Source: Chthoniobacteraceae bacterium (GTDB lineage Bacteria > Verrucomicrobiota > Verrucomicrobiia > Chthoniobacterales > Chthoniobacteraceae). Taken from it: a DNA stretch of 37,463 nt. A program made the translations under genes and the position numbers. Positions 10,754 through 36,845 of this stretch are shown piece after piece (positions within the stretch are counted from its first letter, which is position 1; each line of letters begins with the position of its first letter). Where the stretch lies: positions 1 through 37,463 of the forward strand of contig CANJNZ010000045.1 of NCBI GenBank assembly GCA_947476045.1. Reading direction: 5' to 3'. A model generated the notes under the pieces. The model was not told the origin of the DNA and ran no database searches. It saw nothing but the letters and a program-made list of their open reading frames with translations.

Positions 10754-12121
10754 TCAGCGAATTGCCTTTTTACTCCCGGGAGAAAGAAGGCGGATTTCAA
10801 ATTCGGTAATTTCTTCGTCCGAGCGCAGCAGTCGCAAATCTCCTCCCTGCGCCCGCGCCAGTTCGCGCGCAATACTGAGACCGAGGCCGTGTCCGACACG
10901 CTGTTCGTCGCTCTCACCACACGTGAAGCGATTAAAAATAACCGGCATTTTTTCGCCCGGTATCGGTGTGCCTGTGCTCGCGACAATGATGAAAACACCT
11001 TCCTCATCAGTGCCAGCGCTGACGTTTATCAGCCCGCCGTCGCGATTATATTTCACCGCGTTTTCGAGAAGGTTCAGCAACACTTGCTCGACGCGAGCTT
11101 CATCCGCGATAGCCGAGATTTTTTCCGGCAAATCGTGCTCGATGCGGAGTTTGCGCTGGGCAGCTAGGACTTCGGCGTCTTCGAGACAGCCTTCGATGAG
11201 CATACGAAGATCGGTATCAACCGCCTTCACCGCGAGGCGACCCGCATCGGCTCGCGCGAGGAGAAGCAGTCCCTCGGCCAGCGAAGAGAGCCGTCGCGTC
11301 TGCTGCAGGAGTTCATCCAGCTCGCGGCAATGTTCAGGCGAAAGTCCGGGTTGCTTGAGCAGCGATTCGATGCACGAACGCATGACGGTGATTGGCGTCT
11401 TGAGCTGGTGCGATGCGTCGGATGCGAAGTGAACAGCCTGAGTGTATCCCTTTTCGAGTTGCTCGAAGGTTTTGTTGAGCACCTCGGTGAGTTCGTGAAT
11501 TTCATCCTTCGCATCAGGCACGGGCAGTCGCTGCGTCAAATCCTCGGTGGTGATGCGCCGGGCGGCATCGGTGATTTTTTTGACGGGTCGCAGTGCGCGG
11601 ACTGCCACGAGTAGTCCCCCAGCGAGGCTGAAGAGCAGGATCGCTGGTAGCGAAATGAGGATGGCGTGCGAGACACGGGCGAGTGTCGCATCATCATTCG
11701 CGAGTGATGCGCCGAGGTGGAGCGTGAGCGACTTATGATAGTAGGTGCCGACGCGATAGGGTCGCTCACGGAAAATGAATTCGTGTAGCTCAGGCTGTCC
11801 TCCTCCGAGGCTTGTATTTTTGAGGCTCGATGAGCGGTAGAGCGTCTGTTTGTTCGCGCCGATGATTTCAATCAAATGCGAGTTGGCTGAAGGCGGCATC
11901 AAGTCGTCCGCTATGAAAGTGCGCACTTCCGCTGGGCCGCCGGGACGTTGATCGAGATTCCAGAAAATCTCGCTCGCGACGCGATCCATGCGCTGATCCA
12001 AAATCTCCATCAGTTCGTATTGGAGAAAGTAGCTGATGCCGAAAAGCGCGAGCCCCATCGCGCCGCCGGCCATCAGTGCGGACCAAAGCGCGACTTTGAC
12101 CCGCAGGGGCAGCGCGCTCAT
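10754..12121 (-). CDS. Two-component sensor histidine kinase (QseC/CusS-like)
   Basis: 455 aa. TM1 residues about 9-32, periplasmic sensor about 33-150, TM2 about 152-175, HAMP about 176-228. The HisKA dimerisation domain has phospho-acceptor His238 in DASHQLKTPI, then an HATPase with N-box NLLENAVKYN and a lid ending in GHGLGLSIARELA. The start overlaps the response-regulator stop by ATGA, so the kinase is the second gene of the pair. The periplasmic domain has no motif that reveals the signal. Family resemblance is to kinases sensing metals or envelope stress; that is a guess from the regulator type. Confidence 0.93.
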   Translation of the reverse strand: MSALPLRVKVALWSALMAGGAMGLALFGISYFLQYELMEILDQRMDRVASEIFWNLDQRPGGPAEVRTFIADDLMPPSANSHLIEIIGANKQTLYRSSSLKNTSLGGGQPELHEFIFRERPYRVGTYYHKSLTLHLGASLANDDATLARVSHAILISLPAILLFSLAGGLLVAVRALRPVKKITDAARRITTEDLTQRLPVPDAKDEIHELTEVLNKTFEQLEKGYTQAVHFASDASHQLKTPITVMRSCIESLLKQPGLSPEHCRELDELLQQTRRLSSLAEGLLLLARADAGRLAVKAVDTDLRMLIEGCLEDAEVLAAQRKLRIEHDLPEKISAIADEARVEQVLLNLLENAVKYNRDGGLINVSAGTDEEGVFIIVASTGTPIPGEKMPVIFNRFTCGESDEQRVGHGLGLSIARELARAQGGDLRLLRSDEEITEFEIRLLSPGSKKAIR

Positions 12122-12795
12122 GCCGCCGGCGCTTCGATTTTATAGCCGACGTTGCGCACTGTCTGGATGAGCTTCACGGGGAAATCCTCATCCACCTTGC
12201 GGCGGACGCGCTGGATGTAAACGTCCACGGCGTTCGTCTCGTCATCGAGCGCGCTCTTCCACACGTGCTCGCAAAGCTCCGTGCGCGTGAAGGCGCGACC
12301 CATGTGTCGCATGAGGAAATTGAGCAGTCCGTATTCGCGCAGCGACAGGTAAAGTTTTGTCGTGCCGCGAATGACATCGCGCGTGGTTTCATTCAGCACG
12401 AGATCGCCTACGCGCAGGAGCGGCGAGTTATCCGCGCCTTTGCGCCGGGTGAGGGCGTTCACGCGGGCGATCAATTCCTCCATCGCAAACGGCTTGGGTA
12501 AATAGTCGTCGGCACCGAGATCGAGTCCGCTGATACGGTCGGGCAATTCACCACGTGCTGTGATGATGAGCACCGGTGTGGACAGACTGCGCTGGCGGAT
12601 GGCTCGAAGGATTTCGATGCCGTCGCAACCCGGCAACGCCAGATCGAGAAGGATGATATCAAACGGGCGTGTGGTGGCGGCTTTGAGGCCTTCGTCACCT
12701 TTGTGAAGGGTTTCCACCGTGTGACCCTCGGCAATGAGGGCTTTTGCGATGTAGCGGGCGATTTTTTCTTCGTCTTCGACTAGTAGTATTTTCAT
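12118..12795 (-). CDS. OmpR/PhoB-family response regulator
   Basis: 225 aa with a receiver domain (phosphorylated Asp51 in IILLDLALPG, acidic pocket E7-D8, Thr in ITARGE, Lys in DYLPKPF) and a C-terminal winged helix (SLREYGLLNFLMRHMGRAFT, ETNAVDVYIQRVRRKVD, IQTVRNVGYKIE). It resembles CusR/QseB-type regulators. It is the first gene of a two-gene operon with the kinase and is transcribed away from the exported VWA gene at 12934. The 138-bp divergent spacer could hold shared control sites, but I see no convincing direct repeats. Confidence 0.95.
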   Translation of the reverse strand: MKILLVEDEEKIARYIAKALIAEGHTVETLHKGDEGLKAATTRPFDIILLDLALPGCDGIEILRAIRQRSLSTPVLIITARGELPDRISGLDLGADDYLPKPFAMEELIARVNALTRRKGADNSPLLRVGDLVLNETTRDVIRGTTKLYLSLREYGLLNFLMRHMGRAFTRTELCEHVWKSALDDETNAVDVYIQRVRRKVDEDFPVKLIQTVRNVGYKIEAPAA

Positions 12796-29761: not shown

Positions 29762-30019
29762 ATGAAACAACCCTACAAACTCCTGATCGCGGGACTCTGC
29801 ACCGCTGCTTTTGCGTGCGCAGCGCTCTGCCCGCAGACATTGAAAGCACAGGCCGAGGACGAGCAGCAGCAAATTGCAAAACTCGTCACCGAAATCTCAC
29901 AGCAGCAGACGCAGATAGTTGCCAATCAAAAACTCATTGATGATAAAGTCGCCGTGGTTACCGAGAGTCTTCGTGTAGCCAAAATTTTTGTTTCCCGTGG
30001 AGGCGGAGCATCGAAATGA
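29762..30019 (+). CDS. Tiny exported coiled-coil protein, 85 aa
   Basis: Signal peptide residues 1 to about 30 (MKQPYKLLIAGLCTAAFACA, then LCPQTLKAQA). The mature 55 residues are Gln/Glu/Lys-rich with heptad-like spacing (QQQIAKLVTEISQQQTQIVA) and end in a Gly/Ser/Lys tail (RGGGASK). The stop overlaps the next ATG (ATGA), so the two small genes are coupled. No family recognised. It is divergent from rpoN across 112 bp. Confidence 0.65.
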   Translation: MKQPYKLLIAGLCTAAFACAALCPQTLKAQAEDEQQQIAKLVTEISQQQTQIVANQKLIDDKVAVVTESLRVAKIFVSRGGGASK

Positions 30020-30252: not shown

Positions 30253-30852
30253 TTAAGAACCCGCCGAGGCACGCAGCCAGTCGCTTTCCGTATCCACATC
30301 GCGCAAAATCGGCAGCCTGCGCAAACGAACTCCCGCAGCCACAGCGCGCGAGATTGTATCAGCCAGCGTATGCTCGGTGCTCCAGCGGATGTTTTCAAAA
30401 AGCGCAGGTTCCGCGCGTCGTAGCGAGAGTAGATAATAGCCACCGTCTTCCGTAGGCCCGATGGCCGCATCATCCGCCCCCCATGCTTCCTCAAAAATCG
30501 CGGGTGTGATCTCCACGCAATCGCTCCCAATCACCGCCACATGCTCCCAGCCTGCGGCAAAAGCGGACGCAAACGCCGCCTGCAAACGCATCCCGAGATC
30601 CCCGCGTGCCTGCGGCTCAAAAGTTGAGGACGGCGGGAGTTTTGGCGCAAGCCACGCTTCGATTTCTGCACGCCGCTCCGGTGGGTCAAAATGCACGATC
30701 ACCGGCGTCGTGCGCGGTAATCGTGCACACACCTTCGTGACCAGTTCACGATAAATCTCCGCCGCCCGCTCTGCGCCAGTCGTGGCTGCAATACGCGTCT
30801 TCACGCGCCCTGCCTGGGGCCACTTCACAAAGAGCAAAATCACCCTGCGCAT
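30253..30852 (-). CDS. DUF2064 / TIGR04282-type glycosyltransferase-like protein
   Basis: 199 aa with a GT-A nucleotide-diphospho-sugar fold pattern: N-terminal ILLFVKWPQAGRVKTRIAAT (family hallmark K-x-P-x-x-G-x-VKTR), GSDCVEI as the metal site and GPTEDGGYYLLSL, the strongest family signature. Members are annotated as glycosyltransferase-A-like proteins, some linked to arsenosugar synthesis, but biochemical evidence is scarce. It begins 5 bp after the kinase-like gene on the same strand, so they form an operon. No arsenic genes are nearby. Confidence 0.85.
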   Translation of the reverse strand: MRRVILLFVKWPQAGRVKTRIAATTGAERAAEIYRELVTKVCARLPRTTPVIVHFDPPERRAEIEAWLAPKLPPSSTFEPQARGDLGMRLQAAFASAFAAGWEHVAVIGSDCVEITPAIFEEAWGADDAAIGPTEDGGYYLLSLRRAEPALFENIRWSTEHTLADTISRAVAAGVRLRRLPILRDVDTESDWLRASAGS

Positions 30853-30857
30853 CGAAG

Positions 30858-31739
30858 CTATGCAGCCGCCACTTCGGGCAGGCGCACCCGGATCGTCGCG
30901 CCCACACCCGGCTGACTTTCAGCAAAGATAATTCCGTCCATCCCCTCCACCAGCATACGCGCATTTGCCAGCCCATGTTTGCCGCCGGTATTTTTCGTAA
31001 AGAGCCGCGCCAATTCATCCGCACCAATACCCGGGCCGCTGTCGCCCACACGTATTTCTATATGGCGACCTTCTCGTTGCACAGTCACAGCGATGCGTCC
31101 CCCTCGCGGCGTGAATTTCAGCGCATTGCCCACAATCTCATCCATGACCTGCGCAAGTGCATCCACATCGACGCGGACACGGCCGGGTCCGGAGTGAAAG
31201 GAGAGGGTGATTTGTTTCACCTCCGCGCGCAACTGCATCGCTGCAAGAATGGTTGCGAGTTCATTGGAAAGCTCCACCTCCCGTGCCTCGAACTTTGCCT
31301 GCCCGGATTGAAGCGCTGTGGTGTTGAGAACGTTTTTTACCAAACGCGTCATTCGCTCCACAGTCTGCCGGAGCATCGTAACCGTCTTTTCATCCAGCGC
31401 GCTTGCTCCGAGCGAATCACACGCCAGCCGGATCGTTTGCAAAGGATTGTTCAAGTCATTCGCAAGCATCGCCATGAGATGCTCCCGCTCGCTGTTCAGC
31501 ACCACCAGCCGGGCTTCCAACTCACGTCGCGCGATATCCATGCGCCGCGCCCGATAAATGAAAAAAAACACCACTGCGACGGCCAGCAGTGCAATGGCCC
31601 ACGGAAGCGCGGACCAAGCGAACCGCATGAAATTTCCGCCTCCCGCGACGGGCACGCCGGGCGACGGCTCGGGCTCCTCCGGCACGCCAGCCAGAACAGC
31701 GAGGAAAGTAATGCTAACGGGCAGACTGATGGCAAACAT
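30858..31739 (-). CDS. Histidine-kinase-like protein lacking the phospho-acceptor histidine
   Basis: ATG 31739 gives 293 aa; an earlier in-frame ATG at 31799 would overlap the divergent ftsK region and looks unlikely. Residues 1-19 are a signal or first TM; a short acidic Pro-rich segment follows; TM about 43-62. The dimerisation helix reads MLANDLNNPLQTIRLACDSL, where the family has MLAHDLKNPL: Asn94 (codon AAT) stands in place of the phospho-accepting His. The ATPase half is preserved: N-box DEIVGNALKFT with Asn205, G1 DSGPGIG (233-239) and a shortened G2 region (GGKHGLANA). It may bind ATP and signal without autophosphorylation, or be decaying. Operon with the DUF2064 gene; no response regulator nearby. 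Confidence 0.85.
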   Translation of the reverse strand: MFAISLPVSITFLAVLAGVPEEPEPSPGVPVAGGGNFMRFAWSALPWAIALLAVAVVFFFIYRARRMDIARRELEARLVVLNSEREHLMAMLANDLNNPLQTIRLACDSLGASALDEKTVTMLRQTVERMTRLVKNVLNTTALQSGQAKFEAREVELSNELATILAAMQLRAEVKQITLSFHSGPGRVRVDVDALAQVMDEIVGNALKFTPRGGRIAVTVQREGRHIEIRVGDSGPGIGADELARLFTKNTGGKHGLANARMLVEGMDGIIFAESQPGVGATIRVRLPEVAAA

Positions 31740-31834
31740 GTGCGGAGACAAGCCGGAACATGGGACCCACGACAAGCCTGCACGACTCCCGCATTGCAAA
31801 GACGCGCCGCCCGGCTACGGTCGCCGCACTAAAA

Positions 31835-34426
31835 ATGGCGCAATCCCGTCGCGCAGAACGCACCTCTTCCTCTAAACAGGAAATTCTCGGACTCAGCCTT
31901 CTTGTGCTGGGTATCCTGCTTTTCCTCGCACTCATTTCCTACACACCGCGCGATGTGCCCTCATGGTTTCCGCTCTCCCATGCCGCCTCGACGAGCAAGA
32001 TATCGCAAAATTTCGTCGGCACGCTCGGCGCGATGATGGCGTGCGTGAGCTACTCATTCTTGGGAGCAGCGAGCTACCTGCTGAGCGCATCGCTCATCGC
32101 CTATGGCGCAACCACACTTTTTGGCCGCCCAATGGGATTCGCGCTGCGTCCGATTTGGACGGCAGGGTTCGTATTCAGCGGAGCCTGCCTGCTGCACGTG
32201 CTCGGCTGGTCGCTGATTGATAGCGCGAAAATGAACATCGCCAGCGAAGGCGGAATCATCGGCGAATTCATCGGTGGCAAAATTTTCCACAACATCTTTG
32301 GCCCCGCATCCGTGCTGGTGCTCGGCCTTGTCTACATCGTCTCGCTCATCCTGATGACCGGCCTGCGTCCCATCGCCGTCGCACACCGGCTCATCGCGAT
32401 GCCCGACAAATGGATCAAAGCGCAACGCCAGCGCAAAATCGAGAGCGCCACCGAGGAGCAGCGCATCATTTTGGAACAAAAGAAACTCGAGCGGGAGCAA
32501 CGCCGCCTCGAACGTGACCTGGGCAAGCTCCGCACAAAAAACGACGACCCGGATGACGAGGCGCAGGCAAAACTCCAGCAGCCCGAACTCCTCCCGCTCG
32601 AAGGCGAAAAAGAACCCGAGCGGCCCGCGCCGAAGATCTTCGATTCCGCCGCGCCGCCCCCGCCCGTCGCGAAAAAGGAAAAGGAGAAAAAGAAAATCGA
32701 GCTGCTCGCGACACTGCACAACGAGAACTACAAACTCCCGTCGCTCGATTTGCTCGATGCCATGGACACCGAGGGCCGCGTCGTCGCCAGCCACGACGAA
32801 TTGCTCGGCGTGCAAACGCGCATCATCGAGACACTCTCCGAGTTCGGCATCGCCGTCACAGCGGGCGACATCACGAAAGGCCCGACCATCACGCGCTACG
32901 AAGTCTATCCCGCCAAGGGCGTCCGCGTAGATCGCATCACCACCTGCGAGCGCGACCTCGCACGCGCCACGCGCGCTGAGCGCATCAACATCCTCGCGCC
33001 CATCCCCGGCAAAGACACCGTCGGCATCGAAATCGCCAATTCCAAAAAGCAAAAAGTCGCCCTGCGCGAGCTGCTCGAATGTGAGGACTTCGCAACATCG
33101 AAGGCAAAAATCCCCATCGCACTCGGCAAGGACGTGTATGGCAAGGCGATCATCGCCGACCTCGCCGCGATGCCACACGGCCTCGTCGCCGGCACCACCG
33201 GCTCGGGCAAGAGCGTGTGCATCAACGCCATCATCGCCAGCATCCTCTACCGCTTCACGCCGGAAGACCTGCGGCTCATCATGATCGATCCGAAAGTCGT
33301 CGAGATGCAGATGTATAACACCCTGCCCCACCTCGTCGTTCCCGTCGTCACTGATCCGAAAAAAGTCCTGCTCGCCCTCAAGTGGGCCGTGAACGAAATG
33401 GAAAAGCGCTACGCCATTTTCGCCAAGTGCGGCGTGCGCAACATCGGCAGCTTCAACACCCGCCCGAAGCCCAAAACGCAAAAGGAACTCGACGCGGAAA
33501 AATCCGCGCCCGCCGCTCCTGCAAGACCGAAGCCACTCGACGGAGTGGATCTCAACGCGGAGCCTGATGTCGCTAGCAGCAGCGACATCCTTGGCCGGCC
33601 CTTCGGCGAAATCGCAGAGGAGGACGCCGGCCCAGCCGTGCTTAACGCCACTTCCGAGCTTTACGGCACACCCGACAGCGACCGCGAAACCGTCGGCGAA
33701 GAACTCGATCGCGCCGAGCAGGCCGAACTCGGCATCACCGTCCAGCGCGACGACGGCATAGTCGTCCCGGAGAAAATGCCGTTCATCGTCATCATCGTGG
33801 ACGAGCTTGCCGACCTCATGCAGACCGCGCCCGCCGATGTGGAATTGCTCATCGCGCGCATCACGCAGAAGGCGCGCGCCGCAGGCATCCACATGATCAT
33901 CGCCACGCAGACACCGCGCGCCGACGTCATCACCGGCGTCATCAAAGCGAACGTCCCCTGCCGCATCGCATTTCAAGTCGCCAGCCCGCTCGATAGCCGC
34001 GTCATCCTCGATGAAAACGGCGCTGAGCGACTCCTCGGCATGGGCGACCTGCTCTATCGCCCGCCGGGCACTTCGCGCATGATTCGCGCGCAGGGCGTGC
34101 TCGTCACGGACGAGGAAGTCCACCGCGTCGTCGCGTTCGCAAGCGCGCAGGGCGAGCAGTGCTTTGAAAGCGACATCCACTCCAAACTCGAAAACGTCGG
34201 CGGCGACGATGAGGAGGAAGTGAGCGATGAAGACGAGGTGCTGGTCGCAAAATGCCTCGAAGTCATGCAGCAGGAAGGCAAGGCCAGCACCTCGCTTTTC
34301 CAGCGCCGCCTGAAACTCGGCTACACGAGGGCCGCGCGAATTTTGGACATCCTCGAGGATCGCGGTTACGTCGGCCCAGGCGACGGCGCGAAGCCGCGCG
34401 AAATCCTGCGTTCGGGCGGCGAATAG
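31835..34426 (+). CDS. ftsK: DNA translocase FtsK/SpoIIIE
   Basis: ATG 31835 gives 863 aa; upstream codons to 31760 lie in the divergent spacer and are not conserved-looking. Four TM helices lie in about residues 15-180, then an acidic/basic linker with KKLEREQRRLERDLGK. The motor carries Walker A GTTGSGKS with Lys459 and Walker B IVIIVDELADLM with Asp656-Glu657, and ends in a winged-helix gamma domain (ASTSLFQRRLKLGYTRAARI) that reads KOPS-type DNA sequences. It pumps DNA through the septum and helps resolve chromosome dimers. An acidic, Pro-rich segment of about 105 residues (539-645) sits between Walker A and B, roughly 70 longer than I expect for the family. Followed after 52 bp by the rodZ-like gene. 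Confidence 0.96.
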   Translation: MAQSRRAERTSSSKQEILGLSLLVLGILLFLALISYTPRDVPSWFPLSHAASTSKISQNFVGTLGAMMACVSYSFLGAASYLLSASLIAYGATTLFGRPMGFALRPIWTAGFVFSGACLLHVLGWSLIDSAKMNIASEGGIIGEFIGGKIFHNIFGPASVLVLGLVYIVSLILMTGLRPIAVAHRLIAMPDKWIKAQRQRKIESATEEQRIILEQKKLEREQRRLERDLGKLRTKNDDPDDEAQAKLQQPELLPLEGEKEPERPAPKIFDSAAPPPPVAKKEKEKKKIELLATLHNENYKLPSLDLLDAMDTEGRVVASHDELLGVQTRIIETLSEFGIAVTAGDITKGPTITRYEVYPAKGVRVDRITTCERDLARATRAERINILAPIPGKDTVGIEIANSKKQKVALRELLECEDFATSKAKIPIALGKDVYGKAIIADLAAMPHGLVAGTTGSGKSVCINAIIASILYRFTPEDLRLIMIDPKVVEMQMYNTLPHLVVPVVTDPKKVLLALKWAVNEMEKRYAIFAKCGVRNIGSFNTRPKPKTQKELDAEKSAPAAPARPKPLDGVDLNAEPDVASSSDILGRPFGEIAEEDAGPAVLNATSELYGTPDSDRETVGEELDRAEQAELGITVQRDDGIVVPEKMPFIVIIVDELADLMQTAPADVELLIARITQKARAAGIHMIIATQTPRADVITGVIKANVPCRIAFQVASPLDSRVILDENGAERLLGMGDLLYRPPGTSRMIRAQGVLVTDEEVHRVVAFASAQGEQCFESDIHSKLENVGGDDEEEVSDEDEVLVAKCLEVMQQEGKASTSLFQRRLKLGYTRAARILDILEDRGYVGPGDGAKPREILRSGGE

Positions 34427-34478
34427 CGCAGGTTTGCATTGCGCGCAGCGCGGCAACCGCCAACTTGGTGCACGGAAC

Positions 34479-35444
34479 ATGGATCACGATTTTGGAAAAC
34501 GACTGGCAAAGGCACGCGCTGCACGCGGACTCGGCATTGAGGAAGCCGCGCACGCCACGCGCATCCGGGCATCGCACATTCAGGCGCTGGAGGATGGCAA
34601 CCTCGTAAAATTTCCAAACGCAGCCTACGCGAAAAGTTTTCTGGTCATGTATGCGCGCTTCCTTGGCGTGGACGTGAGCGACGTCGCCTCGCAAATTGAC
34701 ACCGCGACGCAGATGAAGGTCGAGGATTTCCAATACCTCACCAACCGCGCAAGTGGGGAAAAGAAGCTGCAACGCGACGCCACCGATACACGCTACGATT
34801 TCGTCGTCCCGCAAAAAGACGGCGGCTCATGGATGCCGCTCATCGCCATCGCCGCCATCGTCGCTGTCGGCGTGATTGTATTCATCGTTTGGAGCAATTT
34901 CACCCGCATCGCCGACACCGATCCCAAGCCTGGCCCGGCGCCCACAACCAGCGAGGCGAAGGAGGCCGTGCAGCCGCTCAAGGACACGCCGCCACGCAAA
35001 CAAAATCCCGAACCGGAGCCGGAGCCGCCGCGTCCGCGCATCATCGCACTTCCCGCGCCTGCGCCCGGCGAGGATCCCGCGATTCCGCGCGCGAAGCCAA
35101 TTTCGCCGGTGGCGAAAATTGCATCCGGCGACGCTGACGCACTCTCCGAACTCGCATCACCTCCAAAACCCGCGCCCGCCATTGCAACACCGCCGGAGGA
35201 GAACAACACACCGGGCGTCGAGCCGGACGTCATCGTCCTCGAACCCCGCAGGAAAACGTGGGTCGTCATCCGCAACGGCTCCGGCGGCCAGCCGCTCTTC
35301 GAGGATTACCTTTATCCCGGCGCGAAGCCAATGCACCTCCCGGCGGGCCGCTATTTCATCGAGCTGAAAAGCGCGGATGCCGTCGAGATTTCCAAAAACG
35401 GAAAGCGCATCGCCTACAACGCACCAGGCGTGGTCGTTCAGTAG
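34479..35444 (+). CDS. RodZ-like protein (HTH, TM, C-terminal beta domain)
   Basis: Start at ATG 34479, 321 aa. An XRE-like HTH at residues 5-75 (FGKRLAKARAARGLGIEEAA, ASHIQALEDGNLVKFPN, YAKSFLVMYARFLGVD) is the RodZ cytoplasmic hallmark that binds MreB. A single TM follows at about 118-138, then a long Pro/Glu/Lys-rich linker (about 145-245) and a beta-rich C-terminal domain (WVVIRNGSGGQPLFEDYLYP) resembling DUF4115. Family members connect MreB filaments to cell-wall synthesis. It follows ftsK closely on the same strand and is probably cotranscribed. mreB is not in the window. Confidence 0.85.
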   Translation: MDHDFGKRLAKARAARGLGIEEAAHATRIRASHIQALEDGNLVKFPNAAYAKSFLVMYARFLGVDVSDVASQIDTATQMKVEDFQYLTNRASGEKKLQRDATDTRYDFVVPQKDGGSWMPLIAIAAIVAVGVIVFIVWSNFTRIADTDPKPGPAPTTSEAKEAVQPLKDTPPRKQNPEPEPEPPRPRIIALPAPAPGEDPAIPRAKPISPVAKIASGDADALSELASPPKPAPAIATPPEENNTPGVEPDVIVLEPRRKTWVVIRNGSGGQPLFEDYLYPGAKPMHLPAGRYFIELKSADAVEISKNGKRIAYNAPGVVVQ

Positions 35445-35451
35445 CTTCAAT

Positions 35452-35569
35452 GAGCGGCGACATTCCTGTCGCCGTTCACATTTGCGCGAAGCGCACACAT
35501 CTTCGCGCATCACTGCAAATGAGCATGGCGCTTCGCGCAGCGAGGTCGGCGACAGGAATGTCGCCGCTC
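35452..35569. repeat. 118-bp inverted-repeat element with nested alternative hairpins
   Basis: The outer arms are perfect 22-bp inverted repeats: 35452-35473 (GAGCGGCGACATTCCTGTCG plus CC) and 35548-35569. Inside, TGCGCGAAGCGC (35483-35494) pairs with GCGCTTCGCGCA (35528-35539); its first nine bases can instead pair with CTTCGCGCA at 35501-35509. It looks like a REP/MITE-type dispersed repeat. The start of the arm resembles GAGCGACATTCTGCCGCC near 882-900. No transposase is inside. Confidence 0.85.
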
Positions 35570-35575
35570 CTTTTT
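35548..35575 (+). terminator. Likely intrinsic terminator formed by the repeat's 3' arm
   Basis: The 3' arm of the inverted repeat is followed by C and then TTTTT at 35571-35575. It would terminate the ftsK-rodZ-like transcript and insulate the MFS gene. The loop is long, so efficiency is uncertain. Confidence 0.5.
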
Positions 35576-35603
35576 GGTATGATGCCGCAAAGCGCGGCTT
35601 GCC

Positions 35604-36845
35604 ATGAAGCGCGTGCTCGTGCCTCCCTCACGCGTGCATGATCAAAAATGGTGGCGTGAATACACAGAGCTTGCCGTGCTATTTTTCCTCCACGCGATGG
35701 CGATGGGAATTTGGTTCGTCCCGCTCGCCTCGGTGCTGGATATGCACGGTCTGTCACACATCAAATCCTACGCCTATGCCACCGGCGGAATCTCGGCCTT
35801 CATCTCGCCGCTGATTTTCGGCGCGCTCGCCGACCGTCACATCGCCCCGGCGCGGCTGCTCCGCTGGCTCTCACTGGCAACGGCTATCGCGATGGCGCTG
35901 GCAACCACCGCGATCCACTTTCACTGGAGCGCCGCGATCATCCTCGTGCTCATCCAACTCCACGCTCTGTGCGCGACTCCCACGTGGAGCATTTCGACCA
36001 CCATCGTCCTCGCGAAATTGAACAATCCGAAGCGCGAATTTGGCCCCATTCGCGCGATGGCCACGCTCGGCTGGATCGCCGGCTGCCTGCTCGTCTCCGC
36101 ACTCCATGCCGACAGTTCCACGCTCGCAGGCTACGGCGGAGTGTTGGCATGGCTCATCGTGACAGCATTCACTTTCGCACTCCCAAGCGTCGCGCCGCCA
36201 GCGCAGACGGAGCATCTTTCGTGGAAACAACGCCTCGGACTCGACGCGCTTTCGCTGCTGAAACATCGCGACACGTGCGTCGTCTTCATCGCCGCCGCGC
36301 TCTACAACATGCCGCTCTGCGCCTTCTTTCCACAGACGCCACTGCACATGAAATCCCTCGGCCTCCACAGCACGACCGCGTGGATGTCGCTCGGCCAGGT
36401 CACGGAAGTCGTCGCAATGTTCGGCCTCGCCGGACTCCTCGCGCGCTGGCGAATGAAAACCGTCATCCTCGCAGGCATGAGCTTTGGCGTGCTGCGCTTC
36501 GTCCTTTGCGCATTCGACACCAAGGGCTGGCTGCTCGGCGGCGTCGCACTGCACGGCCTGTCGTTCGTCCTCGTCTACATCACCTTCCAGCTCTACCTCG
36601 AACAACGCATAGACCCGCGCTGGCGTGCGCGCGCGCAGGCGCTGCTCACCCTTTTGCTCAGCGGCTTCGGAAATTTATTCGGCTACCTCGGCTGCGGTTG
36701 GTGGTTCAAAGCGACCACACAGGGAGAAATCACACGCTGGCCGCTATTCTGGGGCGGCCTCGCAGTGAGTGTCGCCGTAGTATGGATATTCTTTGCCCTC
36801 GCCTATAAAGGGCGCGGGTCAGCGGAAAAGGACACGACATCCTGA
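35604..36845 (+). CDS. MFS permease, nucleoside:H+ symporter-like
   Basis: 413 aa with about twelve hydrophobic segments from residue 20 (ELAVLFFLHAMAMGIWFVPL) to residue 400. The cytoplasmic loop after TM2 reads FGALADRHIAPARLLRW, the MFS motif A position. The NupG/XapB-type nucleoside permease or LacY-like group fits the overall pattern (KREFGPIRAMATLGWIAGCL is a common feature there). Substrate is therefore only suggested; deoC at 5852 could use deoxynucleosides it imports. No Shine-Dalgarno sequence is visible. It ends 4 bp before hicB-derived sequence on the other strand. Confidence 0.82.
   Translation: MKRVLVPPSRVHDQKWWREYTELAVLFFLHAMAMGIWFVPLASVLDMHGLSHIKSYAYATGGISAFISPLIFGALADRHIAPARLLRWLSLATAIAMALATTAIHFHWSAAIILVLIQLHALCATPTWSISTTIVLAKLNNPKREFGPIRAMATLGWIAGCLLVSALHADSSTLAGYGGVLAWLIVTAFTFALPSVAPPAQTEHLSWKQRLGLDALSLLKHRDTCVVFIAAALYNMPLCAFFPQTPLHMKSLGLHSTTAWMSLGQVTEVVAMFGLAGLLARWRMKTVILAGMSFGVLRFVLCAFDTKGWLLGGVALHGLSFVLVYITFQLYLEQRIDPRWRARAQALLTLLLSGFGNLFGYLGCGWWFKATTQGEITRWPLFWGGLAVSVAVVWIFFALAYKGRGSAEKDTTS

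Follow-up and report, generated by a model that had tools for sequence, protein, structure and literature searches.

A gene in the window, i.e., the whole 37,463-nucleotide stretch of Chthoniobacteraceae DNA analyzed here, encodes a pseudo-histidine kinase: the protein has the histidine-kinase fold, it has lost the phospho-accepting residue, and this loss is conserved. We consider it probable that this is a maintained protein acting via its DHp domain, which would dock a response regulator and hold or dephosphorylate it. Its role in another signalling pathway would thus probably be a regulatory, non-kinase one. Pseudo-histidine kinases are already known, and what is new here is a member of narrow distribution whose ATP site carries a second lesion (Table 1).

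Table 1. Positions in the window of the pseudo-kinase gene, its altered segments and its neighbour.
Feature	Positions	Strand	Basis
Pseudo-histidine kinase gene, 293 aa: two hydrophobic segments, short coil, DHp (HisKA), CA (HATPase_c)	30858..31739	-	ORF and translation, Pfam, hydropathy, model
H-box segment, residues 84-109; Asn94 replaces the phospho-accepting His, Asp95 (H+1) and Asn98 (H+4) retained	31413..31490	-	25/26 residues invariant in three species
Codon 94, AAT (Asn)	31458..31460	-	AAT in window and G007, AAC in G005
Shortened ATP lid between F-box and degenerate G2, residues 238-258, IGADELARLFTKNTGGKHGLA	30966..31028	-	26 versus 37 residues from G1 Asp to G2 end
DUF2064/TIGR04282 glycosyltransferase-like gene, directly downstream of the pseudo-kinase gene	30253..30852	-	PF09837; TIGR04282 171 bits, cut-off 134

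Translation of the minus-strand ORF gives a full-length protein with the H-box EREHLMAMLANDLNNPLQTI, in which residue 94 is Asn. Two Pfam domains were detected above their cut-offs, HisKA at residues 85-145 (33.1 bits; cut-off 26.9) and HATPase_c at residues 191-289 (75.7 bits), and no Pfam domain scored above cut-off N-terminal to residue 85. Hydropathy analysis revealed hydrophobic segments at about residues 1-19 and 43-62, separated by a loop of about 25 residues. The AlphaFold2 model, built on a shallow alignment (mean pLDDT 74.5; about 90 in the CA core, 66 in the DHp domain and 65-73 in the lid), has the usual DHp hairpin and CA fold. Its best structural matches, DivL, ZraS and HK853, are tied (Z 21.6-22.4), and structures of RetS are also among the matches. 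Both Pfam domains, the model and the structural matches agree in placing the protein in the HisKA/HATPase_c fold family. No named NCBIfam equivalog came near its cut-off with this protein.

The replacement of the phospho-accepting His by Asn, the core of the original prediction, was borne out by the translation and by profile alignments, in which Asn94 is aligned with Tyr550 of DivL and with the His of ZraS and of 8u4x. All 28 other HisKA proteins read in the window genome have His at this position. A single base separates AAT from CAT, as a sequencing or assembly error would require. However, the alignment of orthologues proposed as a check showed Asn in all three of them, including two independently assembled genomes, one of which uses the codon AAC. 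This indicates that Asn94 is a real variant, neither a sequencing error nor a mutation of a single strain, and error at this base was rejected as having a negligible probability. Moreover, the H-box segment is the most conserved 26-residue stretch of the protein in the three species (versus 62% conserved overall; hypergeometric P 4e-5), and the second most conserved stretch, residues 124-151, lies around DHp helix 2, the dimer-forming part. His87, His226 and His255 are all invariant in the orthologues as well; His87 is located one heptad before Asn94, and His255 stands in place of Leu in the G2 box.

Only two orthologues were found, one with 69-70% and the other with 67% identity; they belong to two congeneric species and lie at the same place beside ftsK. 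The gene is present in 3 of the 10 genomes of the genus, and no orthologue was detected in the other seven, in other genomes of the family or in the rest of the 213 genomes of the order; the set therefore consists of three sequences, and the two sister genomes, both assembled from metagenomes, vary in completeness (76% for G007). No His-bearing orthologue was present among the best 11 candidates scored in each of the 213 genomes. At this depth, the search could have overlooked a His-bearing relative of low similarity, but the score of a true orthologue would far exceed those of the candidates. Nor did a His-bearing orthologue turn up in a scan of the genome contigs with DNA patterns, which were built on the Asn-bearing H-box and hence favour Asn. 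Among the three orthologues, dN/dS is 0.18-0.23 for the whole gene and 0-0.07 in the H-box, which shows purifying selection, and constraint is highest on the DHp domain and on the CA core up to G1.

The claim that the gene is maintained and not dead is supported by three of these results: no orthologue found lacks the Asn, dN/dS stands at about 0.2, and conservation peaks in the H-box. A recent loss of function, with the gene on its way out, could explain why, within the order (213 genomes; best 11 candidates each), the gene was found in just three genomes, all of one genus, and the adjacent DUF2064 gene is already broken in two species. In addition, dN/dS exceeds that of the neighbouring genes (mostly 0.02-0.10), which would fit a weaker constraint on the pseudo-kinase gene. 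However, the reading frame is open in all three species at a dS of 0.55-1.1 (P ~2e-19 against neutral evolution), and the strongest constraint falls exactly on the altered H-box. We therefore regard decay as improbable.

As predicted originally, the N-box (GNALKFTP) and the G1 box (DSGPGIG) are intact, but that prediction omitted the shortened F-box-to-G2 lid and the degenerate G2 box. From the G1 Asp to the end of G2, all three orthologues have 26 residues versus 37 in most of the sample kinases and most of the nearest relatives (in one 29-residue case and one 35-residue sister case, L119, the ends were clipped two residues early by the search pattern). Compared with the nearest His-bearing relatives, the lid lacks 11 residues; overall, the shortening is 5-11 residues. 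The G2 boxes read GGKHGLA, GGTHGLA and GSTHGLA instead of GxGLGLA. Thus, the site has the N and G1 boxes but is not the complete ATP site of an active HisKA kinase. Because the lid is shortened and G2 has no middle Gly in any of the three species, the ATP binding included in the original prediction appears doubtful. For comparison, TNP-ATP binding by DivL is >19-fold weaker than that by most prototypical kinases (PMC4211667).

A tree of 40 kinases groups the three orthologues in a single clade (100/100), whose long stem amounts to 1.58 changes per column; its sister group consists of kinases having His and a full lid (94/90). This position indicates that the His and the lid were both lost secondarily, before the three species diverged. 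The nearest kinases in the tree (L117, L118, L119, L121 and L038) are likewise HisKA kinases, with H-boxes of the AHDL(K/R)NPL type; unlike the pseudo-kinase, to which they are about 33% identical, they have the His, mostly a 37-residue lid and the G2 motif GLGLS. A simple motif scan, which is a weak test, flagged no receiver protein within ~1.5 kb on either side of these five loci.

According to the mechanism that we favour, the N-terminus would anchor the protein in the membrane, and dimerization would occur through the normal DHp hairpin. Autophosphorylation would not take place, given the Asn at the acceptor position and the reduced ATP lid. Asn is unable to carry a phosphoryl group as His does, and therefore no histidine phosphotransfer is expected. 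The DHp domain would dock a response regulator phosphorylated by another kinase, and the docked regulator may then be either held, as by DivL, or stripped of its phosphate by the retained Asn98. The DHp hairpin, Asp95, Asn98 and the docking surface are retained and invariant; the latter includes H+8, +11, +12 and +15, the positions setting response-regulator specificity in HK853.

An H-to-N mutant of NtrB reportedly retains phosphatase activity. HisKA proteins require an acidic residue after the His for kinase activity and Thr or Asn at H+4, the position occupied by Asn98 in all three orthologues, for phosphatase activity; the DHp domain alone of NtrB or EnvZ can act as a phosphatase (PMC3510030). 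However, DivL, which has lost kinase activity and kept regulator binding, is without phosphatase activity (PMC4211667), and in HK853 the His aids the phosphatase reaction, H260A lowering the activity (PMC5727384). For these two reasons, we consider the phosphatase branch less certain than the docking branch. A more specific proposal is that the H-to-N replacement and the loss of the lid together made a bifunctional kinase into a phosphatase that acts alone and independently of ATP, or into such a sensor of the phosphorylated regulator. We put this forward tentatively, as possible though rather doubtful; if true, selection would have fixed, in a small number of species, a natural counterpart of a mutant that is kinase-dead but phosphatase-competent.

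Instead of docking a regulator, the pseudo-kinase might form mixed dimers with an active histidine kinase and silence or stimulate that kinase, as RetS does to GacS. Mixed dimers usually require similar DHp cores, and the window genome contains no closely related active kinase: the best paralogue is 29% identical, and no recent parent paralogue was found there. Furthermore, the invariance extends to the surface positions after the H-box, and this would suit regulator docking just as well. The strong conservation of the dimer-forming DHp helix 2 region and the RetS structures among the structural matches are in favour of mixed dimers, and RetS-GacS heterodimers have been documented (PMC12189002). 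We rank response-regulator docking first, whether or not the regulator is dephosphorylated; pairing with another kinase comes second and is in our view unlikely. The proposal that the protein allosterically controls another kinase accordingly keeps some merit, apart from its ATP-binding part. It is very improbable that the protein is still a kinase using another phosphate acceptor. His87 would be the obvious candidate, being conserved in all three species and located two turns up the same helix, but it lies outside the Asp95/Asn98 catalytic frame, and His226 and His255 sit in the CA domain. Besides, the short lid and the degenerate G2 box make ATP-driven transfer to any acceptor unlikely.

DivL of Caulobacter, the top structural match (Z 22.4, tied with active kinases), resembles the pseudo-kinase in having a HisKA-type DHp domain with a replaced acceptor His (Asn94 corresponding to Tyr550), a retained CA domain and an impaired ATP site. 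The two differ in the substituting residue (Asn versus Tyr) and in phylum, and the pseudo-kinase lacks PAS sensor domains before the DHp domain, has an even shorter lid and keeps Asn at the phosphatase position. RetS of Pseudomonas is also a kinase-like protein, one that acts on another kinase. As a hybrid, it carries receiver domains and a periplasmic sensor, neither of which is present in the pseudo-kinase. The active kinase ZraS shares the short ATP lid and a similar fold (Z 21.8), but it keeps the His and GTGLGLA, and its lid is 5 residues longer in the alignment. According to a survey statement, substitutions at the His site, Asn included, occur in ~1% of histidine kinases (PMC5361649), and despite this frequency few bacterial pseudo-histidine kinases have been studied. 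The protein described here is a small one without a separate sensor domain; the acceptor and part of the ATP site are gone, yet the DHp domain is still its most conserved part. It therefore offers a simple case for testing which functions a DHp domain is able to perform in the absence of catalysis.

The gene was originally described as full length in an operon and as possibly controlling a DUF2064 partner. It is indeed full length, and the DUF2064 gene begins 5 bp downstream, which makes co-transcription plausible. That gene, for which the TIGR04282 annotation is arsenosugar-biosynthesis glycosyltransferase, is intact in the window, but in G007 it is interrupted by an in-frame TAG, and in G005 it has a ~180-bp deletion together with a frameshift near its start (L009/L087 and L010/L086 compared). 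As both sister genomes are metagenome assemblies, lesions of a single base are subject to some doubt, which applies far less to the large deletion. The pseudo-kinase gene is intact in both sister species. In G028, which belongs to another genus of the family, the DUF2064 gene adjoins ftsK without a pseudo-kinase gene. Because DUF2064 is broken in both sisters and occurs beside ftsK without the kinase gene in G028, a functional partnership seems unlikely, and the predicted control of DUF2064 is disfavoured. No gene for a response regulator or partner kinase adjoins the pseudo-kinase gene.

Synonymous divergence from G005 (L086) varies along this region: dS is 0.19-0.33 for the ftsK, rodZ-like and MFS genes (31750-36750), ~0.73 for the rpoN and U32 peptidase genes and 0.97 for the pseudo-kinase gene. 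A recombination boundary is likely to lie near the gap between the pseudo-kinase gene and ftsK. The plus strand contains a small ORF of 85 aa at 29762-30019 with a weak FtsL-like match (18 bits, cut-off 50), which is 77% conserved in G005. Elsewhere in the window, at 10754-12795 on the minus strand, there is a complete, ordinary two-component system composed of a response regulator and a histidine kinase with the H-box His.
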